A stretch of DNA of 64,000 nt from Pseudomonas sp. 10S4 (lineage in GTDB: Bacteria > Pseudomonadota > Gammaproteobacteria > Pseudomonadales > Pseudomonadaceae): NCBI RefSeq assembly GCF_034344865.1, contig NZ_CP133774.1, positions 3,534,001 through 3,598,000 of the forward strand. Reading direction: 5' to 3'. Within the stretch, counting starts at the first letter, position 1. Each line of letters starts with the position of its first letter. Made by a program: the position numbers and the translations under genes. Below the pieces are notes generated by a model that saw nothing but the letters and a program-made list of their open reading frames with translations, did no database searches and was not told where the DNA came from. Positions 32,081-48,322 of this stretch are shown here, one piece after another.

Positions 32081-32121
32081 GTAATCAACTTTTTCTTATG
32101 TCTGGAGCGGGTTTTTATTAG

Positions 32122-32148: not shown

Positions 32149-32227
32149 AAATCGGCGCATCCGGTTCCCACGATAGGCGTCGTCGGGGCTTCGAACAATA
32201 CCAATAAAATTTGCACGGAGATTTGCC

Positions 32228-33514
32228 ATGAGTGCGCCCGACACCCTCGACCTCCCCAAGGCCACAACTCGCCCGGGACCGTTCGACTGGTATCGCAACA
32301 TCAACAAACAGGAGCGCCGGACCTTCTGGAGCTGCAAGATCGGCTATGGCCTGGACGGCATGGACACCCAGATGCTCAGCTTCGTGGTGCCGACCCTGAT
32401 TGCCATGTGGGGCATCACCACCGGGCAGGCCGGACTCATTCACACCAGCACGTTGATCGCTTCGGCCATCGGCGGCTGGGTAGCGGGGATTCTCTCCGAC
32501 CGCATCGGCCGCGTGCGCACGTTGCAGCTGACCGTGCTGTGGTTCGCCTTCTTCACCTTCCTCTGCGGCTTCGCCCAGAACTACGAACAACTGCTGATCA
32601 GCCGCACCTTGATGGGTTTCGGTTTCGGTGGTGAATGGACCGCCGGGGCTGTGCTGATGGGCGAAGTGATTCGCGCCAAGGACCGTGGCAAAGCCGTGGG
32701 CATGGTGCAATCGGGCTGGGCGTTGGGCTGGGGATTGACGGCGATTCTGTATGCGCTGCTGTTCTCGGTGTTGCCGCCGGAAGACGCTTGGCGCGCACTG
32801 TTTATCCTTGGCATCGTCCCGGCGATTTTTGTGATTTTCGTCCGTCGACTGGTCAAGGACCCGGAGATTTACCGCGAAGCTAAAGCCAAGCAAGAACCAA
32901 GCAACCCGGCAAAATTCTACGAGATCTTCGCTCCCGGCATCCTCTTCACCACGATTCGCGCTTCGGTGCTGACCACTGGCGCACTGGGCGGTTACTACGC
33001 GATTACCTCTTGGTTGCCAACTTTTCTGAAGAACGAACGGGGGTTGAGCGTACTCGGCACGGGCGGTTATCTGGCGATGGTGATCGTCGGTTCCTACGTC
33101 GGTTATGTCATCAGCGCGTATTTGACTGACATCCTCGGCCGCAAGAAGAACTTCATTCTGTTCGCCGTCGGCTCGTTCACCATCGTGTTGCTCTACACCC
33201 AATTACACGTCAGCAACGGCGTGATGCTGTGGCTGGGCTTCCCGCTGGGCTTCTTTGCCTCGGGGATTTTCAGTGGCATGGGCGCGTTTTTGACCGAGTT
33301 GTTTCCCACGCGAATTCGCGGCTCGGGCCAGGGTTTTTGCTACAACATCGGTCGTGCGTTGGCGGCGTTGTTTCCGCTGTTGATCGGTTTGCTCAGCCAG
33401 ACGGTGCCGTTAAGCGTTGGCATCGGGGCGTTTGCGGCGGTGTCCTACGGCGTGGTGATCCTCGCAGCCTTGAGCCTGCCGGAAACTCGTGGCAAGCAAC
33501 TCGACGCCCAATAG
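32228..33514 (+). CDS. MFS transporter, probable 5-oxoproline/organic acid uptake
   Basis: 428-residue twelve-helix permease of the aromatic-acid/sialic-acid symporter branch (IGYGLDGMDTQMLSF on helix 1, GWVAGILSDRIGRVRTL after helix 2, the DxxGR loop, and LTDILGRKKN in the second half). It is the first gene downstream of the LysR promoter region and is followed after about 75 bases by pxpABC. That context suggests it brings in 5-oxoproline or a related acid. The start ATG at 32228 follows CACGGAG. Confidence 0.88.
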   Translation: MSAPDTLDLPKATTRPGPFDWYRNINKQERRTFWSCKIGYGLDGMDTQMLSFVVPTLIAMWGITTGQAGLIHTSTLIASAIGGWVAGILSDRIGRVRTLQLTVLWFAFFTFLCGFAQNYEQLLISRTLMGFGFGGEWTAGAVLMGEVIRAKDRGKAVGMVQSGWALGWGLTAILYALLFSVLPPEDAWRALFILGIVPAIFVIFVRRLVKDPEIYREAKAKQEPSNPAKFYEIFAPGILFTTIRASVLTTGALGGYYAITSWLPTFLKNERGLSVLGTGGYLAMVIVGSYVGYVISAYLTDILGRKKNFILFAVGSFTIVLLYTQLHVSNGVMLWLGFPLGFFASGIFSGMGAFLTELFPTRIRGSGQGFCYNIGRALAALFPLLIGLLSQTVPLSVGIGAFAAVSYGVVILAALSLPETRGKQLDAQ

Positions 33515-33590
33515 CTTAATAATCAGCAACTGATAATCTGCCGGGCATCTGCCCGACAGTAAAAAGAATATGCCTACAGGAGTGTTCACC

Positions 33591-34343
33591 GTGAGCCGCC
33601 TGCTATTGAACTGCGACATCGGCGAGAGTTTCGGCAACTGGACCATGGGTCTGGACGCCGAGGTCATGCCCTTCATTGATTGTGCCAACATCGCCTGCGG
33701 CTTCCATGCCGGCGACCCGAGCATCATGCGCAAGACCGTCAGCCTGGCCCTGAGCCGCGGCGTGAAGATTGGAGCGCACCCGGCCTATCAGGACCTGGTC
33801 GGGTTCGGTCGACGTTCCATGGCCTACACCGCCCAGGAACTTCAGGACATCCTGCATTACCAGATCGGCGCCCTCGACGGCATCTGTCGGGCTCAGGGTG
33901 GGCGGGTGAGTTACGTCAAACCCCACGGCGCGATGTACAACGACATGATGGCCAATCCGGCGCAATTGCGTGCGGTGATCCAGGCTGTGGCCGCCTACGA
34001 TCGCACGTTGCCGTTGATGCTGATGGCCACCCGCGACAACAGTGCCGCGCAACAATTGGGCGACGAATACGGCGTGACGCTGTGGTTCGAAGCCTTCGCC
34101 GACCGCGCCTACGACAGCGCCGGCATGTTGGTTTCGCGACAATTGCCGGGCGCGGTGCATCACGATCCCGAGAAAATCATTGAGCAGGCGCTAATCATTG
34201 CCCGTGGCGCCAACCTCACGGCCAGCGATGGCAGCGCTTTGCACTTGCAGGCCAACACCTTGTGCGTCCACGGCGACAACGCCAGTTCTGTGGCCGCCGT
34301 GCAGCGTATTCGTGAGGCCTTGAATCAGCAGAGTGCGTCATGA
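33591..34343 (+). CDS. pxpA: 5-oxoprolinase subunit A (LamB/YcsF family)
   Basis: 250-residue subunit of the ATP-dependent 5-oxoprolinase PxpABC, which opens 5-oxoproline to glutamate. [45 protein letters not shown] and [10 protein letters not shown] are family signatures. The GTG at 33591 has AGGAG at ideal distance and gives the usual N-terminus; the ATG at 33570 has no Shine-Dalgarno. It overlaps pxpB by four bases (ATGA). Confidence 0.93.
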
Positions 34344-35044
34344 AACCACGGGTTGAAGTCGTCGCGCTGGACTGCCTGATGGTGCGCCTGTTCGATGAAA
34401 TCGCCGAAGCGAACATGCCGTGGATGCTCGCGGCCAGCGAAGGGCTGCGCGCAGCGTTTGCCGGGCATTTGATCGACCTTGTGCCGTCCTACACGACGTT
34501 GATGGTGCATTACGACCTGACTGCATTGAGCCCGGTTCAGGCGCGGGAATTGATCGCGCAAGCGTTGATCGATCTATCGCCCAATGCCAGTACCAGCGGC
34601 AAATGCCATGTGCTGCCGGTCTGGTATGACTTGAGCGTCGGCCCCGAATTGAGCCTGTTGTCCCAACGCAGCGGGTTGGCGGTGGACGACGTAATCCGCC
34701 GCCACAGCGATCGCGAATATCAGGTGTTCGCGCTGGGCTTCGCACCAGGTTTCGCCTTCATGGGTTTAGTAGAGGAAATCCTCGCCGCGCCGCGTCTGAA
34801 CACCCCGCGTAAGAAAGTCGCAGCGGGTAGCGTGGGAATTGCCGAGCGGCAAACCGCCGCTTATCCGGTGGTGTCGCCCGGAGGCTGGAACCTGATCGGC
34901 CGTACCCCGGCCAAACTGTTCGACCGCGAACGTGACGGCTATAGCCTGATGCAACCCGGCGACACGGTGCGGTTCGAAGCCGTCAGTCATGCCGAGTTCA
35001 TCAACCTGGGCGGTGACGATACGCCACTGGAGGCCCAGGCATGA
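34340..35044 (+). CDS. pxpB: 5-oxoprolinase subunit B (KipI family)
   Basis: 234-residue subunit. The core matches the KipI/allophanate-hydrolase-1 family: [57 protein letters not shown] and [12 protein letters not shown]. It acts with PxpA and PxpC in ATP-driven 5-oxoproline hydrolysis in the cytosol. It is translationally coupled on both sides by ATGA overlaps. Confidence 0.93.
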
Positions 35045-35967
35045 GCCGTCTGAGGATTGAAGCGAGTACGCCGCTGTGCCTGTTGCAGGACGCTGGCCGT
35101 TTTGGCGTGCGGCACTTGGGTGTGACCCAGGGCGGCGGGCTGGACTGGCGCTCGATGTCATGGGCGAATTGGCTGTTGGGCAACGGGTTGGATGCGCCTG
35201 TGGTGGAAATCACCCTTGGCGGGTTCAGCGTGCTGGCCGAGGAAGATTGTGTGCTGGCGCTGGCGGGCGCGGATCTGGGCGCGCAGGTGAATGGCGAGGC
35301 GTTGGCGCCGTGGCGCAGTTTTCGGCTGCACAAAGGTCAGCGCTTGCAGTTCACCCAGCCGCTGCTCGGAGCGCGGGCTTATCTGGCAGCACCGGGTGGT
35401 TTCGACGCGCCGAAGGTGTTGGGCAGCAGCGCGACGGTGATCCGTGAGGAACTCGGCGGGCTGGATGGCATGGGCCGGCCTTTGGCCAAAGAAGCACAGC
35501 TGAGCTATTCGGGCAGTGACTTGATCTTGCTGCGGGAGCTGCCGCGCGAACACATCCCTGATTTCAAACTCGATGCACCGCTGGACCTGGTGCTCGGCGC
35601 GCAGATCGGCGCGTTCAGCGGGCAAAGCCTGTTTGATGCGTTCAACAGCACTTGGACCCTCGACAGTCGTGCCGACCGCATGGGCATTCGCCTGCTGGGC
35701 ACGCCGTTGCAGTACCAGGGCAAGCCGATGATCTCCGAAGGCATCCCGCTGGGCGCAGTGCAGGTGCCACCGGACGGACAGCCGATTGTGTTGCTCAATG
35801 ATCGACAGACCATTGGCGGCTATCCGAGATTAGGCGCATTGACGCCGTTGGCCCTGGCGCGGCTGGCGCAGTGTTTGCCCGGGGCGAAGGTACGGTTGCG
35901 GCCGGTGGTGCAGGACGTGGCGCATCGGGAGCAGGTCGGGTATTTGCGTCAGTTTGTGAATCGCTAA
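35041..35967 (+). CDS. pxpC: 5-oxoprolinase subunit C (KipA family)
   Basis: 308-residue biotin-independent carboxylase-like subunit. The opening LCLLQDAGRFGVRHLGVTQGG, the middle YLAAPGGFD and the end RMGIRLLGTPLQYQG...DRQTIGGYPRLG are family motifs. The gene is complete. Its last 270 bases and the following REP start occur again, identically, at 44970-45273 on the far side of the pap island, so the 3' end of this gene is the site at which the island joined the chromosome. Confidence 0.93.
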   Translation: MSRLRIEASTPLCLLQDAGRFGVRHLGVTQGGGLDWRSMSWANWLLGNGLDAPVVEITLGGFSVLAEEDCVLALAGADLGAQVNGEALAPWRSFRLHKGQRLQFTQPLLGARAYLAAPGGFDAPKVLGSSATVIREELGGLDGMGRPLAKEAQLSYSGSDLILLRELPREHIPDFKLDAPLDLVLGAQIGAFSGQSLFDAFNSTWTLDSRADRMGIRLLGTPLQYQGKPMISEGIPLGAVQVPPDGQPIVLLNDRQTIGGYPRLGALTPLALARLAQCLPGAKVRLRPVVQDVAHREQVGYLRQFVNR

Positions 35968-35998
35968 AAGCTTCGCGGGCAAGCCTCGCTCCTACAGG
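35695..35998 (+). repeat. Left 304-bp direct repeat of the island
   Basis: Identical to 44970-45273 (constant offset 9275) when compared by eye. It covers the end of pxpC from CTGGGCACGCCG through the stop codon and into the first REP unit (CGGGCAAGCCTCGCTCCTACAGG). Confidence 0.95.
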
Positions 35999-36065
35999 GT
36001 TTATGCATGCCGGATGTTTTCGGCACGACTCAAATCCTGTAGGAACGAGGCTGGCCCGCGATGGT
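35969..36065. repeat. REP doublet (GTAGGAACGAGGCTTGCCCGCGATGG family), left
   Basis: Inverted pair GCGGGCAAGCCTCGCTCCTAC and GTAGGAACGAGGCTGGCCCGCG with a 38-base loop. The doublet at the right island end has the same arms but a different, shorter loop. Confidence 0.85.
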
Positions 36066-36083
36066 GTCAGACCAGTCGTCGCA

Positions 36084-37604
36084 TTACACGACCCTACAAT
36101 TCGGTATCCGCAGAGTGCGCCATGCAATAAACATCGCTATAAGTGCCAGGCTAAACGTAACCCACGAAACCAGCCCGATACCACCCTCGAATGCGCTTCC
36201 CGCCTGCATCATCAATTCTCTCGCCTGATCACCAGACAACTCTGCCGTCACGTTATGGGCCCCCGAGAGCGTCTCACTCGCCAGCATCGCCTGTACTTCG
36301 TTAAGAAAACCCGGAAGCTGCAATGCTCCGCGATAGTAGGCGGTGACGAGACCGCCGAGTACTGTCGTTCCCAATACTACGCCAACTTCATAGGCCGTTT
36401 CGCTAATGGCTGACGCCGCACCCGCTTTCGCCGACGGCGCAGCCGACAAAATCACATCGTTGGAAACCGTCGCAATCGCGCCCACACCGATATTCAACAA
36501 GGCAAAAGCCACCACCAGAATAGTCAAACTGCTACCCATGCTGGCGACCAGCAAAAAAGCCGCACCAGCAAACGCCATAAGAATCGGTACCAACACATGC
36601 CCCCGTACTCGCTGTGCTATGGGGACTACCGCCATCCCCACTACAATTGCCATGATCTGACCCGGTATCAAGGCGAGGCTCGCGCTCAAAGGGGACATCT
36701 GAAGTACGATTTGTAAGAACTGAGTTGTGAAGAATACGAAGCCAACGAGGAACGCGAGGCTCATCAGATTGATCACGACGGAGCCGCTGAAAGCACCGCT
36801 TCGGAACAAACTCAGATCCATCAGCGGCACAGGCAGACGAAACTGTCGATGTACAAACATCCACCCAGCGAGCGCGCCCACAGCCAATGCTGCGACCGCC
36901 ATCCAGTCAACACCATCACTGGCACCGTGTTTGATGCCGTAAACAATGGCGCTGAGGGCTACCATCGATTGCAGAATACTGATGGGGTCCAATGACCCTG
37001 AAGTGTCTCGTTCAGATTCGGGCAACAGCAATGGTCCCAATACCAGTAATGGCAGCAATATGGGGACTGCGAGTAAAAAAATCGCTCCCCAGTTGAAAAA
37101 CTCCAGTAATACCCCGCCCACCAAAGGACCGAGTGCCGAACCTACCGTCAAAGTCGTCGCCCAGATCGCGACCGCTATTCTCCGTTCTTCTCGATCTTCG
37201 AACACCGAACGTATCAATGCCAGTGTTGAGGGCATAAGCATCGCACCAAAAATCCCCATGCAAGCTCGCCCGGTAATCAGTTGCGCTGCTGTACCAGAGT
37301 AGGCGGTCAGCACCGACACGATGACAAAGCCCAGTGACCCCGTGAGCAACAACTTACGATGACCGACTCGATCTCCCAGACTACCCATCGACACCAGCAA
37401 TCCTGCCAATACCAGCGAATAAGCATCGATCATCCACAATTGCTGGCTAGCGCTTGGACGCAGGGCCTCGGCAATTTTTGGTAACGCGAATCCAAGCACC
37501 GTGTTGTCAACGGTCACCAGCAATACAGGCAGCATCAGCACGCATAGGCTTGACCACCGTTTTGAGCTTGCTCCGCGTTGTGCCGCCTTACTTACTAACG
37601 CCAT
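36084..37604 (-). CDS. MFS exporter, DHA2 (14-helix) drug:H+ antiporter
   Basis: 506-residue multidrug-type exporter. VLLVTVDNTVLGFALPKIAEAL on helix 1 (motif D1), GSLGDRVGHRKLLL after helix 2 (motif A) and GSALGPLVGGVL on helix 5 (motif C, antiporter-specific) identify the QacA/SmvA type. It is the last gene of the island operon, 94 bases behind papC and separated from it by a perfect hairpin. The likely job is export of, and self-protection against, the aromatic amine product. Start ATG 37604 follows AAGGGG. Its G+C is slightly higher than that of the other island genes. Confidence 0.88.
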   Translation of the reverse strand: MALVSKAAQRGASSKRWSSLCVLMLPVLLVTVDNTVLGFALPKIAEALRPSASQQLWMIDAYSLVLAGLLVSMGSLGDRVGHRKLLLTGSLGFVIVSVLTAYSGTAAQLITGRACMGIFGAMLMPSTLALIRSVFEDREERRIAVAIWATTLTVGSALGPLVGGVLLEFFNWGAIFLLAVPILLPLLVLGPLLLPESERDTSGSLDPISILQSMVALSAIVYGIKHGASDGVDWMAVAALAVGALAGWMFVHRQFRLPVPLMDLSLFRSGAFSGSVVINLMSLAFLVGFVFFTTQFLQIVLQMSPLSASLALIPGQIMAIVVGMAVVPIAQRVRGHVLVPILMAFAGAAFLLVASMGSSLTILVVAFALLNIGVGAIATVSNDVILSAAPSAKAGAASAISETAYEVGVVLGTTVLGGLVTAYYRGALQLPGFLNEVQAMLASETLSGAHNVTAELSGDQARELMMQAGSAFEGGIGLVSWVTFSLALIAMFIAWRTLRIPNCRVV

Positions 37605-37633
37605 TCGCCAAACCCCTTATCACCCACAAAACA

Positions 37634-37663
37634 TTCACGGGAGATTTGCGAGACTCCCGTGAA
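37634..37663 (-). terminator. Hairpin between papC and the exporter gene
   Basis: Perfect 10-bp stem TTCACGGGAG / CTCCCGTGAA with a 10-base loop, followed on the minus strand by TGTTTTG. It may act as a partial terminator or processing site that sets exporter expression apart from the biosynthetic genes. Confidence 0.55.
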
Positions 37664-37697
37664 AGAATCCCTGTTCACTTCCCGGACGATGATGTCG

Positions 37698-38573
37698 TCA
37701 GTTCAGTAATGAAAAAACGTGCTGACAATCGACAGCACCCGAACTCAAACGAGTACCCAATGTATTTGAAATGCCCTGTAGGTCGTTTCTGAATTCGTCG
37801 TAATCCTGATCGCGGACATTTTTCATCAACCGCTCCATTCCCTCAGCTAGCGCAGAGCGCTGGTGGTTGGCTTGGTCATTTTCAAGCTGTATGTCCCAGT
37901 AGACTTCGGGTGGATTAACTAGAACCCGAGACAGTAACGCCATCATCGTGCGCATCGGTGGTGGCATCACCTCAAGAGCACTTTCCAAATCAAGTGAAGA
38001 CCTTGCCAATGCCAGGCCAAACCCGAGAATTGCTGCATGGGGCAATGCCTGACAAAGCGCCATCAGTTCATCATGGGCGACAGGCGTCATTCGCTTTACT
38101 TTCATACCTGCCTCCATCAGGTGCTGCTCGATGAAGGTTGAAGGCGAGTCTCTTTCTTCCAGACAAATTGCGACGGTGCGCCCCTGAACGGAGAGTTTGG
38201 GCGAAAACATCGGGTTGATACCTACGAAAGGTTGAAGGGGCGAGGCATCCTTCAATGCTTTGTAAAACGGTTCCTGAACAGAGCAAGTCGGGATGAACAC
38301 TACATTCTTTGAAACGGAGCTAACAACCCAAGGTATCGCATGGATAGCCGCGCTTTCTGGTAGCGCAAAAACCACTGCAACTGCCCCCTTGAAGATCTGT
38401 TCGGTGTTACTGAAAGGGCTCATGACATCAACTTGATGGAAGCCTCTTTCATGCTCGGCTGATCGTCGATCTACGACCCGGATATCGTATCCATATTGCA
38501 CAAGGATGCGGCTGATCAAAGAGCCAACTAAGCCAGCCCCGCCTAACACGACAACTGTGTCACCCATCATCAT
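37698..38573 (-). CDS. papC: PapC-like 4-amino-4-deoxyprephenate dehydrogenase
   Basis: 291-residue TyrA-family dehydrogenase. The Rossmann motif VVVLGGAGLVGSLISRIL is at residues 7-24 and the all-helical prephenate-dehydrogenase dimer domain follows. In TyrA enzymes a histidine in the HPMFGP motif contacts the 4-hydroxyl of prephenate. Here the motif reads NPMFSP with Asn at 120. Together with the ADC-synthase-type PapA and a free chorismate mutase in the same operon, this points to oxidative decarboxylation of 4-amino-4-deoxyprephenate to 4-aminophenylpyruvate. Start ATG 38573 overlaps the papA stop by four bases. A plain prephenate dehydrogenase cannot be excluded without assay. Confidence 0.78.
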   Translation of the reverse strand: MMMGDTVVVLGGAGLVGSLISRILVQYGYDIRVVDRRSAEHERGFHQVDVMSPFSNTEQIFKGAVAVVFALPESAAIHAIPWVVSSVSKNVVFIPTCSVQEPFYKALKDASPLQPFVGINPMFSPKLSVQGRTVAICLEERDSPSTFIEQHLMEAGMKVKRMTPVAHDELMALCQALPHAAILGFGLALARSSLDLESALEVMPPPMRTMMALLSRVLVNPPEVYWDIQLENDQANHQRSALAEGMERLMKNVRDQDYDEFRNDLQGISNTLGTRLSSGAVDCQHVFSLLN

Positions 38574-39772
38574 TCGCTCCCTGCGACAAAACTGTAATAA
38601 GGCACGCTAGCCTTGACCAACGTTTCTTCAAGCTCTTGCTCTGGATCAGAATGCGCGACAATCGCGCCGCCAATTCCGAATTCCGCCTGGTTACCCTGTA
38701 GCACCGCCGTTCGAATGACAATGCTCAGCTCTGCGCCACCACTAAAAGACAACCAACCTAATGCGCCTGAGTAGACTCCACGTGCTGAGGACTCCAGTAC
38801 GTCAATAATTTCCATCGTGCGTTTCTTCGGAGCTCCCGTCATTGATCCACCCGGAAAACAGGCTCGTATTGCTTCGATCGTTGAAATATCAGAGCGCAGG
38901 TGGCCACGAACCGTTGAAACAAGTTGATGTACTGAAGAAAAGCTTTCTACTGAAAATATCTCGGGAACATGCACACTCCCTGGACGGCACACTCCATTCA
39001 AATCATGGCGCACCAAATCCACAATCATCAGGTTCTCGGCCCTGTCCTTGGTCGAGTTACGTAGCTCATCGCGTAGTATCTGGTCATCTTCTTTTTGCTT
39101 ACTACGTGGCCTCGTTCCCTTGATAGGTCTGGATTCGATTAACCCACTGTCATCGATTCTGAGAAAGGTTTCAGGCGAAGCACTCAGCACTGAAAATCCT
39201 GCGAACGAGAGATATGCTCCGTAAGGTACCGGACTGGCTTGGCGCATTCGCCGATAAGCATTCAGGGGCGCACCGTTGTACGCCATTTTCGCTCTATTGG
39301 TCAGACAGATCTCGTATGATTCTCCATCAGTAATGTACTTTAGTGATTGGTTGATCTTGCTGATGTAATCATCTGGCCCGTCATCAAGCGAAAGCTTCAA
39401 CTGATCTACAGCGCCTGGAATAAAAGAACTGCAATGAGCTTCGGACTCGTCATTGCAATTGAGAAGTTTAGGTAAAGATGGCCAAACAACTGCAGCGCCA
39501 TTCGCAGTCATCATGCATTCATAGATCTTGTCTTCATGATGATCAAACACAAAGAAATGCGGCGCGAACATGAATGAAGCATCCGGATACGCCGAGCGAT
39601 ATGTTTTGTGTCCTCCTGCTTGCGCTTTCAATTCGTAACCGAGATAGCCAACGAACCCCCCTTGAAAACAAATGGCAAGTACTGAGGTGTTGCTACCTGA
39701 ACGGCCTCGAAGATCTGCGTAGTCAAGGTAAAGAAGTCGCCGCGGATGCTTTTTTACCTCAAGGACCTTCAA
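38570..39772 (-). CDS. papA: PapA, chorismate-binding part (aminodeoxychorismate synthase component I)
   Basis: Chorismate-utilising domain that aminates chorismate at C4. The motif RPIKGTRPR carries the lysine (218 of this reading frame) that acts as nucleophile in PabB-type aminodeoxychorismate synthases; anthranilate synthases have Ala there (PIAGT). GYLGYEL, DGESYEICLTNR, DRAENLMIVDLVRHDL and CFPGGSMTGAPK are standard family motifs. The frame lacks the first 70 or so PabB residues, which are encoded at the end of the upstream frame. Deleting one of the two A at 39761-39762 fuses both into about 687 residues, the PapA/PabAB fusion length. TTG at 39772 is the only start if it is truly separate. 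Confidence 0.85.
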   Translation of the reverse strand: MKVLEVKKHPRRLLYLDYADLRGRSGSNTSVLAICFQGGFVGYLGYELKAQAGGHKTYRSAYPDASFMFAPHFFVFDHHEDKIYECMMTANGAAVVWPSLPKLLNCNDESEAHCSSFIPGAVDQLKLSLDDGPDDYISKINQSLKYITDGESYEICLTNRAKMAYNGAPLNAYRRMRQASPVPYGAYLSFAGFSVLSASPETFLRIDDSGLIESRPIKGTRPRSKQKEDDQILRDELRNSTKDRAENLMIVDLVRHDLNGVCRPGSVHVPEIFSVESFSSVHQLVSTVRGHLRSDISTIEAIRACFPGGSMTGAPKKRTMEIIDVLESSARGVYSGALGWLSFSGGAELSIVIRTAVLQGNQAEFGIGGAIVAHSDPEQELEETLVKASVPYYSFVAGSE

Positions 39773-40634
39773 CTTTTAGGGTCTCGTCATTGACATCGTA
39801 CTCAAGCCTTATTGCTCCGAGACTCTGTCCGCTACCCATAATCGAGTAGCGGGCGTTAGGTCGCTCTGACTTTTCGCAGTCTAGCCAAAAAGCAAAATAG
39901 TCATCTGCATAAAGCGTTGAAAACACTGCTTGCGGATCCGTGCATTCAGAAAGCTCTCGATAGGAAAGTTGCATGTTCAGCAATCCCCCTACCGCGACAT
40001 ATGCATCTTTTGATGATGTGCATTCGGTGTCGGACTCTAAGCGAGTTCTAGCGCCGGCGTTATGTTCCAGCGCCATACGTATGAAGTTGCTCAGTAGTGC
40101 ATGGCCATATTCCGAGTCGATGGATTCAGGGTGAAATTGGACACCCCACATCGGCCTGGTGATGTGCTCAATTGCCATGACCACGCCTTCTGATGTCCAG
40201 GCAGTACATTGGAGTTCTGGAGGTAAGCTGGTGCACGTCAGCGAATGGTATCTGACCACCTCGAACTGCTCCGGGAGATCGCGGAATAGTCCTTTGCCCG
40301 AATGAGTGATACGACTGCGGTAGCCATGCACAGGGTTGGGGGCATGCCCAACGGTTCCTCCCAGAAATTGAGCGATGCCTTGATGTCCTAGACAAATACC
40401 AAGCAGAGGCACTGGAGAATGGAGGATGACGTCACCGCAAACACCGAAATCGCTATTTTCTTTTGGGTGTCCTGGACCGGGTGACAGTATTACAGCGTCA
40501 TACTTTTCGATGTCCAATTCACTGTAGGAAATAGCATTTTTGATTACTTCAACGCAAGTGCCTGTCACTTCATACAAATACTGAGCGATATTTTGGGTGA
40601 AGGAGTCAAAATTATCGATCAACAATATTTTCAT
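39759..40634 (-). CDS. papA: PapA, glutaminase part plus PabB N-terminus (frameshift split)
   Basis: Glutamine amidotransferase domain that feeds ammonia to the chorismate-binding part. The ATG at 40634 (MKILLIDNFDSFT) overlaps the papB stop by four bases, with AAGGA upstream. The triad is Cys81 in LLGICLGHQGIAQ and His/Glu in VQFHPES. After about residue 195 the sequence changes to the beginning of a PabB domain (FAFWLDCEKSERPNARYSIMG) and then stops at 39759. This shows that the gene was built as a PabA-PabB fusion and is split by a +1 shift, genuine or due to sequencing. Confidence 0.85.
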   Translation of the reverse strand: MKILLIDNFDSFTQNIAQYLYEVTGTCVEVIKNAISYSELDIEKYDAVILSPGPGHPKENSDFGVCGDVILHSPVPLLGICLGHQGIAQFLGGTVGHAPNPVHGYRSRITHSGKGLFRDLPEQFEVVRYHSLTCTSLPPELQCTAWTSEGVVMAIEHITRPMWGVQFHPESIDSEYGHALLSNFIRMALEHNAGARTRLESDTECTSSKDAYVAVGGLLNMQLSYRELSECTDPQAVFSTLYADDYFAFWLDCEKSERPNARYSIMGSGQSLGAIRLEYDVNDETLKVEGP

Positions 40635-40966
40635 GGTGTTCGTCCTTGTGTTAGACGCTGTTTGATCAGTGCGTCTTCCCGAATACATGTTTCGTTTATT
40701 ATTATTCCAAATATCGACTCTATGTATTCTGGTCTCAATCCTACCGCTTCCGATCTACCTTTGATCATGTCGATTACGTAGGAGATTCGCCCGGGTTGCA
40801 TCATTGCAATACCATGGGCCGCTTTGAGCTCAGCGATGTCCATGCAGACTTTCATTCTCTCAGAAAGCAGATCTACAATTTGCAAGTTGATCGAGTCGAG
40901 TTGATCCCGATATGGCTGTAAAATGCTAGACGTGTTTGTATTTAAATACTGTCCTTGTTGTGACAT
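40631..40966 (-). CDS. papB: PapB-like chorismate mutase (4-amino-4-deoxychorismate mutase)
   Basis: 111-residue AroQ-type all-helical mutase. Counterparts of the catalytic residues are visible: Arg in PYRDQLDSIN, Arg in LLSERMKVCMDI, Lys in AELKAAHG and Arg in MQPGRISYVI. In this operon the expected reaction is the Claisen rearrangement of 4-amino-4-deoxychorismate to 4-amino-4-deoxyprephenate. An ordinary chorismate mutase has the same fold, so the assignment rests on context. Start ATG 40966 follows CGAGGTG. Confidence 0.8.
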   Translation of the reverse strand: MSQQGQYLNTNTSSILQPYRDQLDSINLQIVDLLSERMKVCMDIAELKAAHGIAMMQPGRISYVIDMIKGRSEAVGLRPEYIESIFGIIINETCIREDALIKQRLTQGRTP

Positions 40967-41028
40967 TTGTTTACACCTCGAATTTCCCTTTTTTCTGGAA
41001 GGGAGTCGTTAGTCAGGCGTGATCAACG

Positions 41029-42282
41029 TTAGAGGGACGGTGTCCATAGTCCCTCGCTATTTATAGCCTGTAGAGCAGCCCCCAATAACTTGATATCTGT
41101 ATCACTGTGGTCGGCTGAAATTGCAAAACGGAGCATCGCTTTGCCTTGAGCAATAATTGGATAGAACACTGGGAAGAGCAGCAATTTATGGTCATGCAAA
41201 ATTCTCGCAGCTTGCACCCCGGCTTCCTCTGTTTCAAAAAAAGCACCTCTTACAGGTGACTGGATACCTGCGTTGAGCAACTGGTTAACGGTAAGAGAAT
41301 CTATAAGGCTGACGTTTTTCCAAAGGCGTTGTTGCAGTAGATCAATCTCTTCACTGAGATGGATTTTCGCAGCGGCAACGTTCGCGGCGAGCATAGGCAG
41401 CATTATGGAGTGACCAAATATCAACGGGTTGGCCAAGGTTCGGATAACGTCAATATCTTTCGGATTTGAAACTACGACGAAACCACCCGCCCCACCAAAC
41501 GCCTTTGACAAAGATCCAGCCAGAATAACGTTTACGGGCAACAAATGATCAACCGCCGAAAAGGCATATCCCGCACCATGACGACCTGTTATCGAAATAC
41601 CATGAGCATCGTCTACGTACAGGTATCCCCGGGCCGAAGCCACCTGTCGGGAGAGTTCGGCGATGGGCACAAGACCGCTCATCGAGCCAATTCCATCGAT
41701 CAAGAGCACAGGAGTTTCACCTTTGTCAGTGCAGACCTTAAGCGCTGAGGTTAGTGAGTCTGGATTGCTGGCTTCAACTCTCGAAACGGATCCGAACTGC
41801 TCCAGAATCCCCCTAAGTACCTGCATCGAAGCATGAGCAGTTTTATCCATCATCCAATGGATTTGTTTTGTGACCGGATACCCTGTCAGAGAACCGCTCC
41901 CCAGCAAAGGTAAAACACCTAGATGGACACTGCTGGTAGAGGTAAATACTGCGACTCCACTACCTTCGTAGATTTGGCCAAGCAGCTCTTCGAGTTGAGG
42001 AAGGTAAATCGGGCGCATGGCACTTCGAGACGAAGAAAGGTGCAGGCCGAAAGTTTCCATCGCCTGCCGTGCAGCGCTTATCAATTTCGGGTGAGTTTCT
42101 AAGCCTAGGTACGAACAGGAAACAAACTCAGTGAACGTACCTCCATCCTGCAAAGTAATAAACTTGCCCACACGACTAGCAACGGTAAAGCCTGTTAGTC
42201 GTTCCGCGTAAGCTGTCGCCAGTGCACCAGTGGTGCTACTGCGACGAATACTCATCCAATCTTGTTTGGTTTTCGTATCCAT
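41029..42282 (-). CDS. Alpha-oxoamine-synthase-like PLP enzyme
   Basis: 417-residue fold-type I PLP enzyme of the BioF/KBL/HemA/CqsA group, which joins an amino acid to an acyl-CoA with loss of CO2. The PLP lysine is Lys260 in ILAGSLSKAFGGAGGF and the cofactor-ring Asp-His motif is YVDDAHGIS at 222-230. The usual glycine-rich GSGGSR segment is replaced by LHLSSSRSAMRP (about 80-91), so it is not a standard AONS. In this operon it may condense 4-aminophenylalanine (or its N-methyl form) with an acyl thioester, or act as an aminotransferase on 4-aminophenylpyruvate. The start ATG 42282 has AAGGAG eight bases upstream. Confidence 0.8.
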   Translation of the reverse strand: MDTKTKQDWMSIRRSSTTGALATAYAERLTGFTVASRVGKFITLQDGGTFTEFVSCSYLGLETHPKLISAARQAMETFGLHLSSSRSAMRPIYLPQLEELLGQIYEGSGVAVFTSTSSVHLGVLPLLGSGSLTGYPVTKQIHWMMDKTAHASMQVLRGILEQFGSVSRVEASNPDSLTSALKVCTDKGETPVLLIDGIGSMSGLVPIAELSRQVASARGYLYVDDAHGISITGRHGAGYAFSAVDHLLPVNVILAGSLSKAFGGAGGFVVVSNPKDIDVIRTLANPLIFGHSIMLPMLAANVAAAKIHLSEEIDLLQQRLWKNVSLIDSLTVNQLLNAGIQSPVRGAFFETEEAGVQAARILHDHKLLLFPVFYPIIAQGKAMLRFAISADHSDTDIKLLGAALQAINSEGLWTPSL

Positions 42283-42306
42283 TGCTAAAACTCCTTCTTT
42301 AAAAAA

Positions 42307-43158
42307 TCAATAAGATTTGCATCCTGTGGTCATCACTGAGCTGCCCGACGCGTCGGATGTTTCCTTATCAATTATGGTTTGTGTATTGGTGAACCCTCTC
42401 TGCTCAAACAGATCCCGCACGGCTATTGCCTGTTCCTCGCCATGCTCAATGGCTAACCAACCTTCCAGGCTTAGTAATTCGCTAGCCAACAAGATAATTT
42501 GCCGTATCAATTCAAGACCATCAGTACCGGAGTACACCGACGCCTTTGGATGATGATTACTCCACTCAGGCAGTAACTCTTGAAATTGGGGGACATATGG
42601 AGGATTAGCGACGATCAAGCCAACCTGATTTTTGAACTGCGTAAATGCTCGCGTGTTGAGGATGTCTGCCTGCATGTGATTGGCCTGTATCCCCAAGTTT
42701 GCAAGCCGGTCTACGTTGCGCTTGAGGTACTGTATCGCTATCTCATCAACCTCCACGCATGTCACTTTTAGATCTGGTCTGCGCCGCGCGATTGCCAAGC
42801 CAATCGCTCCACTTCCGGCACACAAATCGAGAACAATAGTTCCCGATTTCAGCACGGGACTGGCTTCCAACCATTTGTGAATAACTTTGCTGTGGTGACG
42901 GGGGATAAATACACCACTACCGACCACCAACGGCATGCTGTCAAACTCCACCGTACCAACAATGTGTCCCAGAGGAATTCGGTTACAGCGCTCCTTAACG
43001 GCTAGCATGAACTCATCGAGTGCACGGTTTTTATTCGCTCGTTCAATATATCTATCTATAAGGCAGCTTAAGTCATCTTCGAGGTCCCAAACACCAGACT
43101 CTCGCAATAAGACTCGTGCTTGGTCAATGGCAAGTTGCTCACGATCAGTAAGGCTCAT
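42307..43158 (-). CDS. PrmC/HemK-like SAM methyltransferase
   Basis: 283-residue methyltransferase with an N-terminal helical domain and a Rossmann domain. SAM motif I is VLDLCAGSGAIG (109-120) and the amino-acceptor motif is NPPY at 185-188, found in enzymes that methylate nitrogen. In PrmC the substrate-glutamine loop reads RPxTE; here it reads FIPRHHSKVIHKW, so release-factor methylation is unlikely. A role in N-methylation of the arylamine of 4-aminophenylalanine, as PapM does in pristinamycin producers, is a reasonable inference. The start at 43158 (AAGGAG five bases upstream) overlaps the preceding stop as ATGA. Confidence 0.78.
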   Translation of the reverse strand: MSLTDREQLAIDQARVLLRESGVWDLEDDLSCLIDRYIERANKNRALDEFMLAVKERCNRIPLGHIVGTVEFDSMPLVVGSGVFIPRHHSKVIHKWLEASPVLKSGTIVLDLCAGSGAIGLAIARRRPDLKVTCVEVDEIAIQYLKRNVDRLANLGIQANHMQADILNTRAFTQFKNQVGLIVANPPYVPQFQELLPEWSNHHPKASVYSGTDGLELIRQIILLASELLSLEGWLAIEHGEEQAIAVRDLFEQRGFTNTQTIIDKETSDASGSSVMTTGCKSY

Positions 43159-44588
43159 GACCACTCCTTGTAATACTGGGAAAGTTTTATTCGAATTGAT
43201 TCATAAAGATAGGAAAAGGCCACCAGTTCTGGTGGTGGTGTGAATGATGAGTGCAAGTTGGTGATCAGTTGTTCGTAATTGCTGGATAACCCTTTGTCGA
43301 GTAAAGGAAGCCAATAAGGTTTGATGTCCCAGCGATATTCATACCCTGTGGCAAACATCTGTTGTACTGTTTCCCTGACCGTTTGCTCGCGTGGAATTCC
43401 GGGCAGTGGAGAACGGACAGGTTTGAAAGGGGTTAGATCTAGATAGGGCGTCTCTACACCGGCCAGGCAATCAGCTATGTATCCTGCCAGTAACGGTGAT
43501 TGGTGCAAGCCATCGCGGTAGGTACCTGTTGCAAGCCAAACACCTTTTATGCCGCACTCGCCAATCAGTGGAAATCCATCCGCCGGAATAGGTCTGTTGC
43601 CAACCTGGATGGAAATGATTTCAGCGTCATGAAGATCCAAGTTCAATTGATCAACAGCACAATCGAGTAAAAATTGAACGTCTGATATAAGCGCTTGTTG
43701 TTTTGGTCGCTCAGAAATAATGTTAGTGGCGCCCAGATACAAGACTCCATCCCCGCGAGGAACGCAATGCAAGCCGCATGCAAAGGCACGGTTTGGTGTG
43801 CGGATAACTGAATTCGGCAACTCGACCCCGTTTGGCATTTTCACGAGAATGGAAACGCCATAACCACTGAACAAAGGTGGGATTTTCTTTACGAGATCGG
43901 AGAATTCACTGAGTAAATCCAGCGAGTGAACCCCTGCGGCAACCACAACCTTCCTTGCCCAGAGAACTTCCCCGCTGCACAGTTCGATACCTGTTGCTAC
44001 GCTGTTTTCTGCCAAGACTCGCCTTGCATTCTCATTTTTTAAGATGCCGCCTTCAGCAACAAATGCAGCGTCCAGTTTCTCCAGCAAAAGATGGGAGTTC
44101 ACCGAATGCTCGTTTGGTATGTACAATCCCCGTAGTGGGCGAACTAAATTATTTGGCTTAAGCCACTCCATTTTAGCCGGATCAACAACTTCGAACGGTT
44201 CACCACAGTCCTGTAGTATGCTTTGGATGATGTCGTAATTAACGCTGTCCACTTCATGCATGCCGGCAGTATTGAGCAGTACATGGGTTCCGATTGCGGT
44301 AAATAGCGATGTATAGTCGCCTGAAGATGCGGCCAGTCGCTCCGCCCAGCTTGACCATAAACGTTGTGCTTGTAGGTCCATGTTTAGCTTCAGTCGGCCG
44401 AATTCACTTGCAAGTAGGCTGCTTGTAATTTCACCGAAGCATCCATTCATTGCACCAGCAGCTTTGGATGCTGAGTTTGTATGATCGGTCTTACCCACTC
44501 GACATACTTTTAAACCTCGCGAGGATAATTCGTAAGCAATTGAACCACCCACTGCCCCGGGACCCACAACAATGACGTCGAACTCCAT
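43155..44588 (-). CDS. FAD-dependent amino acid/amine oxidase (DAO family) with C-terminal extension
   Basis: 477-residue flavoprotein, first gene of the island operon. The dinucleotide motif VIVVGPGAVGGSIAYEL is at 5-21. GNRPIPADGFPLIGECGIKGVWLATGTYRDG (split here into GNRPIPADGFPLIG and GVWLATGTYRDG) is the C-terminal FAD motif of glycine-oxidase-like enzymes. About 100 residues follow that are absent from ThiO and glycine oxidase (from LDLTPFKP on). It probably oxidises a C-N bond in a pathway intermediate; the substrate is unknown. ATG 44588 has GAGGAAA upstream. Confidence 0.78.
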   Translation of the reverse strand: MEFDVIVVGPGAVGGSIAYELSSRGLKVCRVGKTDHTNSASKAAGAMNGCFGEITSSLLASEFGRLKLNMDLQAQRLWSSWAERLAASSGDYTSLFTAIGTHVLLNTAGMHEVDSVNYDIIQSILQDCGEPFEVVDPAKMEWLKPNNLVRPLRGLYIPNEHSVNSHLLLEKLDAAFVAEGGILKNENARRVLAENSVATGIELCSGEVLWARKVVVAAGVHSLDLLSEFSDLVKKIPPLFSGYGVSILVKMPNGVELPNSVIRTPNRAFACGLHCVPRGDGVLYLGATNIISERPKQQALISDVQFLLDCAVDQLNLDLHDAEIISIQVGNRPIPADGFPLIGECGIKGVWLATGTYRDGLHQSPLLAGYIADCLAGVETPYLDLTPFKPVRSPLPGIPREQTVRETVQQMFATGYEYRWDIKPYWLPLLDKGLSSNYEQLITNLHSSFTPPPELVAFSYLYESIRIKLSQYYKEWS

Positions 44589-44930
44589 GTTTTTTTCCTC
44601 GGAAAAATTGCCATAGTGTAAGGGGAACTAATATTTCTGATTGGAAGGCAGGACATTTCTATAATTCGTTACATTACAGTTCAATCGACGAATTGTTTCG
44701 TGTTGTGACTTTGAAATGTTTTCACATGTGTTGCGAGGCAGTGTTTGGGGCGCTCGCCGTTAATTCCTCGGTGAACGGTTCGTTTAGTCTGTAAGGGGAA
44801 GTGCTTTTGGTGGTTAGATTGTATTTGTAATATTAATATTGGTGATGGTTTTAATGTTGTCGTTGCAGATAGTGTGAAATGCCCAAGTAGCAATCAATAT
44901 GTTCTGATGTGTACGGATGTTTACTTACGT
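44589..44930 (-). promoter_or_regulatory. AT-rich upstream region of the island operon
   Basis: About 340 bases without a credible gene. On the minus strand a weak promoter candidate is TTGAAC (44679-44684) and TATAGA (44658-44663) with a short 15-base spacer. No regulator gene is present in the island. The right part approaches the pxpC remnant. Confidence 0.35.
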
Positions 44931-45242
44931 TATGGCGACAACCGTGTAGGCCGGATGGGGATTCGCCTACTGGGCACGCCGTTGCAGTACCAGGGCAAGC
45001 CGATGATCTCCGAAGGCATCCCGCTGGGCGCAGTGCAGGTGCCACCGGACGGACAGCCGATTGTGTTGCTCAATGATCGACAGACCATTGGCGGCTATCC
45101 GAGATTAGGCGCATTGACGCCGTTGGCCCTGGCGCGGCTGGCGCAGTGTTTGCCCGGGGCGAAGGTACGGTTGCGGCCGGTGGTGCAGGACGTGGCGCAT
45201 CGGGAGCAGGTCGGGTATTTGCGTCAGTTTGTGAATCGCTAA
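44931..45242 (+). pseudogene. 3' fragment of pxpC (island-end duplicate)
   Basis: Encodes the last ~100 residues of 5-oxoprolinase subunit C. From 44970 it is identical to the true pxpC end. The 39 bases before that (GDNRVGRMGIRL in translation) are similar but diverged, including different codons for RMGIRL. No N-terminal part exists and no start signal is seen, so it is a non-functional remnant marking the right island junction. Confidence 0.9.
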
Positions 45243-45273
45243 AAGCTTCGCGGGCAAGCCTCGCTCCTACAGG
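44970..45273 (+). repeat. Right 304-bp direct repeat of the island
   Basis: Identical copy of 35695-35998 in the same orientation. It includes the pxpC stop codon and the beginning of the REP doublet. Confidence 0.95.
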
Positions 45274-45317
45274 TTTCGGTGTTAACCCTGTAGGAACGAG
45301 GCTTGCCCGCGATGGTG
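45244..45317. repeat. REP doublet (GTAGGAACGAGGCTTGCCCGCGATGG family), right
   Basis: Inverted pair GCGGGCAAGCCTCGCTCCTAC and GTAGGAACGAGGCTTGCCCGCG with a 13-base loop. It is the counterpart of the doublet at 35969. Confidence 0.85.
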
Positions 45318-45339
45318 TCATCCCGGACAACAATCATCT

Positions 45340-46518
45340 CTACTTGGACAAAAACCGCATCCCTTCCTCCAACCCGCGCAAGGTCAGCGGATACATCTGG
45401 TCTTCGATCAAATCGCGCACGATGTTGGTCGACGAGGTGTAGCCCCAAGTGTCTTTCGGGTACGGGTTGATCCAGATGAGCTTCTTGTACTTCGCCATGA
45501 AGCGCTGCATCCACACATAACCCGCCTCTTCGTTCCAGTGCTCCACGCTGCCGCCAGCCTGGGTGATTTCATAGGGCGCCATGGCGGCGTCGCCGATGAA
45601 GATCACTTTGTAATCGGCGCCGTATTTGTGCAGCAGATCCTGAGTCGAGAAACGCTCGGAGGTGCGGCGCATGTTGTTCTTCCACACCGACTCATAAAGG
45701 AAGTTGTGGAAGTAGAAGTACTCCAGGTGCTTGAACTCGGTCTTGCAGGCCGAGAACAGCTCTTCGCAAATCTTCACGTGGGCGTCCATCGAGCCGCCGA
45801 TGTCGAACAGCAGCAACAGCTTGACGGTGTTGCGCCGCTCCGGCCGCATCTGAATGTTCAGCAGCCCGGCATCGCGGGCGGTGTGGTCGATGGTGCCGTC
45901 GATGTCCAGTTCTTCGGCCGCACCCTGACGGGCAAATTTGCGCAGCCGGCGCAGGGCAACCTTGATGTTGCGCGTGCCCAGTTCCACCGAGTCGTCGAGG
46001 TTCTTGTACTCGCGCTGATCCCAGACCTTGACCGCTTTGCCCTGACGCTTGCCGGCATCGCCGACCCGAATACCTTCCGGGTTAAAGCCGCCGGAGCCGA
46101 ACGGGCTGGTGCCGCCGGTGCCGATCCATTTGTTGCCGCCGGCATGGCGTTCTTTCTGTTCTTCGAGGCGTTTCTTAAACTCTTCGATCAACTTGTCGAG
46201 GCCGCCGAGGGACTGGATCTGCGCCCGTTCTTCATCGCTCAGGGAACGCTCGAATTCCTTGCGCAGCCAGTCTTCCGGAATCAATGCCTGAAGGTGGTCG
46301 TCGAGTTTTTCCAGGCCATTGAAGTAGGCGCCGAAAGCCCGGTCGAATTTGTCGAAATGCTTTTCGTCCTTCACCAGAATCGTCCGGGACAAGTAATAAA
46401 ACTCGTCCATGTCGGCGAAGACCACGCGTTGTTTCAGCGCGTTGATCAGGTCCAGCAGCTCGCGCACCGAGACCGGCACCTTGGCGGCGCGCATTTCATT
46501 GAACAGGTTGAGCAGCAT
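45340..46518 (-). CDS. VWA domain protein (partner of MoxR ATPase)
   Basis: 392-residue soluble protein. The C-terminal von Willebrand A-like domain begins at KLLLLFDIGGSMDAH; the metal-site motif is DIGGSM where DxSxS is usual, so metal binding may be altered. The N-terminal half is helical and charged (EEFKKRLEEQKERHAGG). Such proteins work with MoxR-type AAA+ ATPases as chaperones that insert cofactors or mature enzyme complexes. The gene follows the MoxR gene by 35 bases with a strong GGAGG site. The client is unknown. The island was inserted just beyond its 3' end. Confidence 0.85.
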   Translation of the reverse strand: MLLNLFNEMRAAKVPVSVRELLDLINALKQRVVFADMDEFYYLSRTILVKDEKHFDKFDRAFGAYFNGLEKLDDHLQALIPEDWLRKEFERSLSDEERAQIQSLGGLDKLIEEFKKRLEEQKERHAGGNKWIGTGGTSPFGSGGFNPEGIRVGDAGKRQGKAVKVWDQREYKNLDDSVELGTRNIKVALRRLRKFARQGAAEELDIDGTIDHTARDAGLLNIQMRPERRNTVKLLLLFDIGGSMDAHVKICEELFSACKTEFKHLEYFYFHNFLYESVWKNNMRRTSERFSTQDLLHKYGADYKVIFIGDAAMAPYEITQAGGSVEHWNEEAGYVWMQRFMAKYKKLIWINPYPKDTWGYTSSTNIVRDLIEDQMYPLTLRGLEEGMRFLSK

Positions 46519-46553
46519 GGCGATCGCCTCCGCTTTTGTTAAAAAAGCGATAC

Positions 46554-47399
46554 TTAGCGAGAGCCGCGACGGCTCATGAACGCCAGGCGCTCAAGCAATT
46601 GCACGTCCTGTTCGTTCTTCACCAGCGCACCGGCCAGCGGCGGGATAGCCTTGGTCGGATCACGTTCGCGCAGCACTGCTTCGCCGATGTTGTCGGCCAT
46701 CAGCAGTTTGAGCCAGTCCACCAGTTCGGAGGTCGACGGCTTCTTCTTCAGGCCCGGCACTTTGCGCACGTCGAAGAACACGTCCAGCGCTTCGCTGACC
46801 AGGTCTTTCTTGATGTTCGGGTAGTGCACATCGACGATCCGCTGCATCGTCACGCGGTCCGGGAAGGCGATGTAGTGGAAGAAGCAGCGGCGCAGGAATG
46901 CGTCCGGCAGCTCTTTCTCGTTGTTGGAGGTAATGATGATGATCGGGCGAATCTTGGCCTTGATCGTCTCGTCGATCTCGTAAACGTAGAACTCCATCTT
47001 GTCGAGTTCTTGCAGCAGGTCGTTCGGGAACTCGATGTCAGCCTTGTCAATTTCGTCGATCAGCAGGATCACCCGTTCTTCGGACTCGAAGGCTTCCCAC
47101 AGCTTGCCCTTTTTCAGGTAGTTGCGAACGTCGTGGACCTTTTCGGTGCCCAGTTGCGAGTCACGCAGACGGCTGACCGCGTCGTACTCGTACAGGCCCT
47201 GATGCGCCTTGGTTGTGGACTTGATGTGCCAGGTAATCAACTTGGCGCCAAAGGACTCGGCCAGTTGCTCGGCGAGCATGGTCTTGCCGGTGCCCGGCTC
47301 GCCCTTGACCAGCAGCGGACGCTCCAGGGTGATAGCGGCGTTGACCGCCAGCTTCAGGTCATCGGTGGCGACGTAGGCCTGGGTGCCTTCGAACTTCAT
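46554..47399 (-). CDS. MoxR-family AAA+ ATPase
   Basis: 281-residue ATPase. Walker A is GEPGTGKTMLAEQLA, Walker B VILLIDEIDKAD, sensor 1 IITSNNEKELPDAFLRRC with the arginine finger. It is the MoxR/CbbQ-like type, which acts as a hexamer with the vWA protein encoded next. The combination is typical of Pseudomonas core genomes; the substrate is not established. Start ATG 47399; about 200 bases separate it from the diverging DUF4160 gene. Confidence 0.9.
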   Translation of the reverse strand: MKFEGTQAYVATDDLKLAVNAAITLERPLLVKGEPGTGKTMLAEQLAESFGAKLITWHIKSTTKAHQGLYEYDAVSRLRDSQLGTEKVHDVRNYLKKGKLWEAFESEERVILLIDEIDKADIEFPNDLLQELDKMEFYVYEIDETIKAKIRPIIIITSNNEKELPDAFLRRCFFHYIAFPDRVTMQRIVDVHYPNIKKDLVSEALDVFFDVRKVPGLKKKPSTSELVDWLKLLMADNIGEAVLRERDPTKAIPPLAGALVKNEQDVQLLERLAFMSRRGSR

Positions 47400-47571
47400 C
47401 TGCTAATCCTCGAACGGTAACGCCGACCTGAACGGGGCAGGGCGGGGCGCAATAAGTGTAGTCCCCGACTATAACGCGCTGCCCGGTCGACTGTGAACGC
47501 AGACGGGTTATTCAGTCTCTGAATGGGGCGTCACATCTTGACTCAGTCTCGGCGCAAGGCCAGCATTCAGG

Positions 47572-47590
47572 TATCGCCGATTTGGCGATA
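47572..47590. promoter_or_regulatory. Perfect inverted repeat upstream of the DUF4160 gene
   Basis: TATCGCC (47572-47578) and GGCGATA (47584-47590) flank GATTT and end 11 bases before the start codon. The position suits an operator bound by the HTH protein encoded at 47820. A small hairpin in the leader is the alternative. Confidence 0.5.
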
Positions 47591-47601
47591 GCCTTCGCGG
47601 C

Positions 47602-47832
47602 ATGTCTACTAAATACCTATTTCGCGATAAGTACCGCATTCAGTTGCGCGAGAAGGATCATCCACCGCCCCACGTTCACCTGACCGGTGGCGGGTTGGAC
47701 GTGATGCTCAGCCTGGAAACCGTCGAAGTCATGGCAGGAAGGGCGCCGCCGTTGATTATCAGGGAAGCATTGGAATGGGTGGGAGCCCATCAGGTGCAAT
47801 TGTTGGAGGACTGGAAACGATGTTACCCATGA
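47602..47832 (+). CDS. DUF4160 domain protein
   Basis: 76-residue protein of the DUF4160 family (FRDKYRIQLREKDHPPPHVHLTGG). The conserved HPPPHVH stretch could bind metal or nucleic acid. DUF4160 genes are commonly paired with DUF2442 genes as here, and the layout resembles a type II toxin-antitoxin module, but activity is not proven. It overlaps the next gene by 13 bases. The ribosome-binding site is weak. Confidence 0.82.
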   Translation: MSTKYLFRDKYRIQLREKDHPPPHVHLTGGGLDVMLSLETVEVMAGRAPPLIIREALEWVGAHQVQLLEDWKRCYP

Positions 47833-48320
47833 AGCGCCCACGGCTGAACGCTGTCAGGGCTTTGCCGGATTATCGTCTGGCGCTGACGTTTATTGACGGT
47901 CAACAGCTGACACTGGATTTGAGTGCGGATTTGCACGCTTATCCGGGGTTGCAGCCGTTGCTTGCGGATCATGTCTTTGAAGGCGCATCCCTCGGCGATG
48001 ATGGCTGGACGGTGGAGTGGCCCGAGCCGGATATTCAGATTGGTGCAGACTCTTTGTACCTTGATGCTCTTGCGCAAAACGCTACCGACGAAAACACCCG
48101 GATCTTCATCAACTGGCGCGCCCGCACCGGGTTGCCGTTGAATCAGGCCGCTGAAGCACTGGGCGTCAGTGCCCGCAGTATCAGCCGCTACAGCAGCGGA
48201 CGCGAAGCGGTACCCAGGTCATTAGCCCTGGCCTGTCTGGGCTGGGATTCCTTGCAGCAATGTTCAGCATTGGAGGCGGCCGAGGAAACGGGTCGCTACA
48301 CCGTCACGCGTAAACCCTAA
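47820..48320 (+). CDS. DUF2442 protein with helix-turn-helix
   Basis: 166 residues. The N-terminal DUF2442 part (ALPDYRLALTFIDGQQLTLDLS) is followed by a Cro/CI-like helix-turn-helix at about residues 108-145 (PLNQAAEALGVSARSISRYSSGREAVP). It is probably the DNA-binding, antitoxin-like partner of the DUF4160 protein and may repress the pair through the inverted repeat at 47572. ATG 47820 has GGAGG ten bases upstream; a second ATG at 47829 overlaps the DUF4160 stop. Confidence 0.82.
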   Translation: MLPMKRPRLNAVRALPDYRLALTFIDGQQLTLDLSADLHAYPGLQPLLADHVFEGASLGDDGWTVEWPEPDIQIGADSLYLDALAQNATDENTRIFINWRARTGLPLNQAAEALGVSARSISRYSSGREAVPRSLALACLGWDSLQQCSALEAAEETGRYTVTRKP

Positions 48321-48322
48321 CC

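Follow-up and report, generated by a model that had tools for sequence, protein, structure and literature searches.

A probable copy of the pap pyrazine operon, with an interrupted papA gene, next to pxpC in Pseudomonas sp. 10S4

We analysed a 64,000-nucleotide stretch of the Pseudomonas sp. 10S4 genome (contig NZ_CP133774.1, positions 3,534,001 to 3,598,000; hereafter the window, whose own numbering is used below), and within it eight minus-strand reading frames at 36084-44588. These frames very probably form a copy of the pap operon, which leads to the pyrazine DMBAP in P. fluorescens SBW25, in the order papF-papE-papD-papB-papA-papC followed by an exporter gene. The pathway itself has already been described; what the window holds is another copy, probably impaired by an interruption of papA, at an apparent new site. 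An earlier interpretation made from the nucleotide letters only (the sequence-only reading) had proposed an acquired operon and stated that no characterized pathway was known with this enzyme set. That last statement must be dropped, since the accounts of the SBW25 genes, in the portions available to us, connect papABCDEF to DMBAP. Neither the break in papA nor the duplicated pxpC ends that flank the insert had been recognized.

An open reading frame (ORF) check of the window placed the eight frames at the coordinates previously given, and profile searches with Pfam and NCBIfam, with the cut-offs of the models applied, back each of the enzyme types that had been named. The operon starts with a PapF-type flavin adenine dinucleotide (FAD)-dependent oxidase of 477 amino acids (43155-44588; Pfam DAO, 1.2e-39), putatively the dihydropyrazine oxidase. 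It is followed by a PapE-type PrmC/HemK-like methyltransferase of 285 amino acids (42307-43164; TIGR00536 above cut-off), in which the NPPY motif is kept, and by a PapD-type alpha-oxoamine synthase of 417 amino acids (41029-42282; NF005697 above cut-off), the putative 4-aminophenylalanine C-acetyltransferase. Then come a PapB-type 4-amino-4-deoxychorismate mutase of 111 amino acids (40631-40966; CM_2, 8.4e-20) and papA in two pieces, the first encoding the glutamine amidotransferase and the start of the synthase domain (39759-40688; GATase, 3.8e-48), the second the chorismate-binding domain (38570-39772; Chorismate_bind, 1.3e-88; pabB model TIGR00553 above cut-off). A PapC-type 4-amino-4-deoxyprephenate dehydrogenase of 291 amino acids (37698-38573; PDH_C, 4.9e-09) and a DHA2-type major facilitator superfamily (MFS) exporter of 506 amino acids (36084-37604; MFS_1, 3.1e-42) complete the set. 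Neighbouring frames are as closely packed as had been claimed, from a 58-bp overlap up to a 93-bp gap, and the recurrence of the gene order in many genomes shows that the arrangement is not due to chance.

The names PapE and PapF, as used here for the methyltransferase and the oxidase, were attributed on the basis of gene order. The oxidase resembles N-formimidoyl fortimicin A synthase over almost its entire length (residues 3-473; E 9.3e-101; profile 3.3e-140), including a C-terminal part that extends beyond the ThiO-type glycine oxidases, which came next; that synthase works in the biosynthesis of the aminoglycoside fortimicin, i.e. in a different pathway. The synthase is a relative of the BioF/Kbl-type pyridoxal phosphate enzymes, whose solved members are only distant kin. 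PapC matched 18 NCBIfam models, prephenate dehydrogenases at the top, all below cut-off. The best NCBIfam model for the exporter, LfrA, was below cut-off too, and an exporter gene occupies the same operon position in most proteobacterial relatives. A promoter scan upstream of the operon returned a single site, on the strand opposite to that of the operon, which is about the chance expectation; the operon's own strand had none. As had been stated, no non-ribosomal peptide synthetase (NRPS) is encoded among the eight genes of the insert, and a search of ten larger ORFs from other parts of the window found none either.

The route from papABCDEF of SBW25 to DMBAP was reportedly established by Masuo et al. 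in 2020 (ChemBioChem). Published accounts of it (PMC9814548, PMC9700740, PMC10597408), used here for the portions available to us, can be combined with the locus tags of papA (PFLU_1771), papB (PFLU_1772) and papC (PFLU_1770) given in the accessible part of PMC4863162. There, PapD is PFLU_1773, ‘the first dedicated enzyme’ (PMC10597408), and papDEF turn two 4-aminophenylalanines into DMBAP (PMC9814548) by means of a 4-aminophenylalanine C-acetyltransferase, a spontaneous condensation and a dihydropyrazine oxidase (PMC9700740). The synthase gene of the window lies next to papB, the position of PFLU_1773 in SBW25, and the oxoamine synthase and FAD oxidase families fit the published acetyltransferase and oxidase activities. 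As far as reported, and compared by description, the SBW25 set (PFLU_1770-1773 and adjoining genes), from the same genus, has the same C-A-B-D order and the same enzyme types; the window copy differs by its interrupted papA.

Going by homology and gene order, each step in 10S4 can be predicted. PapA would aminate chorismate to 4-amino-4-deoxychorismate, which PapB would rearrange, and PapC would oxidize and decarboxylate the product to 4-aminophenylpyruvate. The proposed route from chorismate to this compound is borne out in that homologues of papA, papB and papC stand together, papA being interrupted. A cellular transaminase would then provide 4-aminophenylalanine, which PapD would join to acetyl-CoA, with loss of CO2, to give an aryl aminoketone. 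Two aminoketones would condense spontaneously to a dihydropyrazine, PapF would oxidize it to DMBAP and the DHA2 protein would presumably export the latter. The same papABC steps to 4-aminophenylpyruvate operate in the chloramphenicol and pristinamycin clusters, and the obafluorin cluster also has papABC; unlike the chloramphenicol and pristinamycin cases, the insert has no NRPS gene, its next enzymes being an oxoamine synthase and an oxidase. An aryl aminoketone had been suggested as the product: it is indeed an intermediate, made via the oxoamine synthase, but the end product is a pyrazine dimer in the account of PMC9700740, as far as we have it. The L-threonine Tdh/Kbl route to 3-ethyl-2,5-dimethylpyrazine, according to the available part of PMC9814548, likewise couples an enzyme of the oxoamine synthase family to aminoketone condensation, but it uses another amino acid and other enzymes, and involves no aromatic amine.

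In a genome scan, 118 relatives were found and 80 loci were kept. The oxidase, methyltransferase and synthase genes occur together in 28 of them (L004-L030 and L035), mostly with PapB, PapA, PapC and the exporter; in every one of these 28 oxidase-bearing loci the methyltransferase gene sits between the other two. The hosts include Pseudomonas, Vibrionaceae (Vibrio and Photobacterium), Streptomyces and Rathayibacter. Loci L037-L083, some of them short, gave no oxidase or methyltransferase match at E 1e-20. Within the genus, the oxidase was detected at E 1e-100 in 15 of 398 genomes (this one included), and the methyltransferase lies beside it in 13 of the 14 others, the exception being the remnant of genome G225 described below. 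Another draw, of 392 relatives covering 90 genera and sharing genomes with the preceding one, contained nine with the methyltransferase at E 1e-45 (again counting this genome), all from its own genus. Pairwise distances, calculated for five genes across 21 loci and the window, gave correlations of 0.956-0.986, and the operon therefore travels as a unit. In a tree of PapA (51 rows, 43 of them different), the copies of P. putida/japonica type group with those of Vibrionaceae, away from the fluorescens-type copies; the latter are lower in guanine-plus-cytosine (GC) content than their flanks, the putida/japonica-type ones are not, and the three Vibrionaceae copies are also slightly lower. Two separate entries of the operon into Pseudomonas appear likely.

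The actinomycete loci show some peculiarities. About 4 kb of additional DNA separates synthase and PapB genes (L025:11250-15060; similar in length in L024, L027, L028 and L029); the L025 segment codes for an MFS transporter and for a 786-residue protein with a PaaK-like adenylating region at residues ~410-690, whose first ~400 residues have no Pfam family match. Upstream of four Streptomyces clusters and on the opposite strand, there is a divergent PapA-like gene that forms its own clade in the PapA tree: it is a second copy in L024 (2591-4669) and L025 (2632-4710), and the only PapA-like gene found in the locus for L027 (2687-4762) and L035 (2262-4559). Four other actinomycete loci, L031-L034, carry synthase homologues (47-49% identity) with no other pap gene in the locus, and these may belong to other pathways.

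The insertion was outlined by comparison with G216, the one other genome of the same species that was examined. A segment of about 8.9 kb, with bounds at about 36070 and 44935 and thus slightly wider than 36084-44588, has no counterpart at the same site of G216, and that genome gave no oxidase match at E 1e-100. Its pxpC-to-VWA region matches 31185-36069 and 44936-50000 of the window side by side, with an overlap in the repeat that borders the insert. On the left (35661-36069), this repeat comprises the 3' end of pxpC and a short repeat; on the right (44936-45320), it comprises a truncated duplicate of the pxpC 3' end and the same short repeat, which resembles the REP (repetitive extragenic palindromic) elements of Pseudomonas. 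The ~300 bp of pxpC present twice (35661-35960 and 44936-45235) are 97% identical; the left copy shows 100% identity with the empty site of G216 and the right one differs from G216 only at its outer edge. The GC content is 0.491 in the insert (over 36073-44935) versus 0.600 in the remaining window, and at third codon positions 0.43-0.59 in the operon genes versus 0.73-0.79 in pxpB and pxpA. Composition and empty site agree with the earlier proposal that the operon is acquired: it would have arrived by horizontal transfer downstream of pxpC, with duplication of the end of that gene. The arrangement fits homologous recombination, anchored in pxpC, by operon-carrying DNA that left the duplication behind, this being the exact mechanism that we infer. 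Within pxpC, a patch at ~35300-35600 is strongly different from G216 and has identical sequence on either side, which suggests a separate recombination tract.

Among the 28 operon loci, no pxp, VWA or AAA neighbour was found at E 1e-30 within the DNA compared. Comparison of flanking DNA assigns the loci of Pseudomonas type to about six further neighbourhoods (L014 being judged from one side), although a shared site might go unrecognized between distant genomes. The pxpC insertion therefore looks like a new site for the pap operon. Fifteen plasmid records match the oxidase, every one at less than 60% identity. Elsewhere in the window, the segment 14921-24331, which includes a resistance-nodulation-division efflux system (OEP, HlyD and AcrB-type proteins), has no match of at least 1 kb at 90% to the compared stretches of G216 and may be another strain-variable segment.

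The two PapA frames reported earlier are both present, but they are one broken gene and not a two-subunit split. An in-frame stop and two frame changes caused by single-base absences lie within about 100 bp, near 39660-39760: piece 1 terminates at the stop, which is not present in the relatives compared, and the first ~30 codons of piece 2 are out of frame with respect to those relatives. A normal two-subunit PapA was rejected because a single frame runs across the junction in all 25 relatives checked (a stop met 11 codons into the alignment in L016 and L018 was taken to precede the true start). Programmed frameshifting was rejected as well, given the stop and the two separate base absences, neither of which recurs in the seven relatives aligned. 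The remainder of papA still looks constrained (ratio of non-synonymous to synonymous change, dN/dS, of 0.05-0.13), so that the damage would be recent or an assembly error. The base losses could be of the latter kind, which counts against the proposed impairment. Such an error is less likely in view of the other operon genes, which are full length, and of the intact flanking genes, seven of which align to G216 full-length or nearly so, in one stretch each; but scattered single-base indels do separate the window from G216. With papA interrupted, the output of this copy is probably small or nil, unless the aminodeoxychorismate synthase of the host feeds the pathway.

Whether the copy is a dead remnant heading for loss concerns its output and not its identity, and we lean slightly towards this view. 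Besides the papA lesions, it is favoured by genome G225 (L113), where the exporter gene stands directly beside an oxidase gene reduced to its first 375 residues, the 19-kb stretch examined containing nothing else of the operon. Against it, all operon genes except papA are as long as in relatives, host PabB might supply some aminodeoxychorismate, and dN/dS is low in every operon gene, albeit as an average along the long branch that leads to the relatives and, versus L009, with synonymous change near saturation. As to identity, the assignment to the DMBAP pathway meets several difficulties: the match to the SBW25 enzymes, as far as these are reported, is one of gene order and described enzyme types; the pyrazine output of this strain is a prediction from its genes; DMBAP as published, in the texts available in part, has no methyl group that would obviously need PapE, which leaves one operon gene unexplained; and the PapA tree carries long-branch warnings. 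Oxoamine synthases differ in the acyl-CoA they use, and the distant relationship of PapD to solved family members leaves some room for another acyl-CoA, or another use of the aminoketone, leading to a different aminophenylalanine-derived ketone or pyrazine; this is improbable because the gene set and order are, as far as reported, those of the SBW25 operon, whose product is known. Still far less credible is that the Pap genes are duplicates of the primary TrpEG/TyrA enzymes with an ordinary role. The two groups share Pfam families, but separate genes of the host encode TrpE and PabB, which score above the cut-offs of TIGR00564 and TIGR00553 respectively, and TyrA-AroA, each of the three passing or topping its own model, and the prephenate dehydrogenase models that PapC matches have cut-offs far above its scores. 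A grouping with the primary enzymes, named in the sequence-only reading as a possible refutation, was not observed for PapA, the protein for which a tree was built among PapA, PapB and PapC: operon PapA clusters with the PapAs of other operons (a clade holding 32 of the 51 rows, with support 96/96) and is separated from TrpE and PabB of the host, and a primary-metabolism origin of PapA was rejected on this tree.

A further reading adds a step to the DMBAP pathway and replaces nothing in it: PapE would carry out an N-methylation, the simplest targets being the aniline nitrogens of 4-aminophenylalanine or those of the dimer, the true end product would be a methylated relative of DMBAP, and DMBAP would accumulate when PapE is inactive. 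Methyltransferases with an (N/D)PPY motif act on planar exocyclic nitrogens, and the motif is kept as NPPY in 29 of 31 distinct methyltransferase sequences, the other two having NAPY and NPLY. The constant company of methyltransferase and oxidase (broken in the genus only by a remnant) and a dN/dS of 0.07-0.19 against L004, L005 and L009 point the same way. PapE is moreover distinct from PrmC and PrmB of the host, which are encoded separately: it scores 176.1 bits with the PrmC model TIGR03534, below the cut-off of 199.1 (host PrmC, 296.5), and a PEW motif, invariant in the 20 methyltransferases aligned (out of 47 sequences at hand, window included), is absent from both host proteins. Its predicted structure (mean pLDDT 83.7) adds nothing to the argument. 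On the other side, recombinant Escherichia coli with papABCDEF yields DMBAP with no methyl on nitrogen (PMC9700740, in the part available), and PapE could act on an intermediate or a protein instead. On the published scheme as we read it from that part, the acetyl group supplies the methyls of the ring, and the word ‘methyltransferase’ is absent from its account of the pathway. No role for PapE was found in the literature searched on the pap pathway, a set of texts, some of them partial, that did not include the original SBW25 paper. We consider it possible, but on balance doubtful, that PapE adds such a methyl; the broader proposal, that Pseudomonas, Vibrionaceae and actinomycetes share an N-methylated DMBAP-type pyrazine made with PapE as a PrmC-derived small-molecule methyltransferase, is equally tentative.

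To conclude, an apparently orphan operon has been placed in a known pyrazine pathway, and its pap genes move jointly among distant bacteria, with occasional loss. The analysis also singles out the companion methyltransferase, whose role is not given in the accounts of the pathway as available to us. If PapE does methylate as suggested, the published DMBAP would be a precursor and not the natural end product, and native producers may export a methylated derivative.

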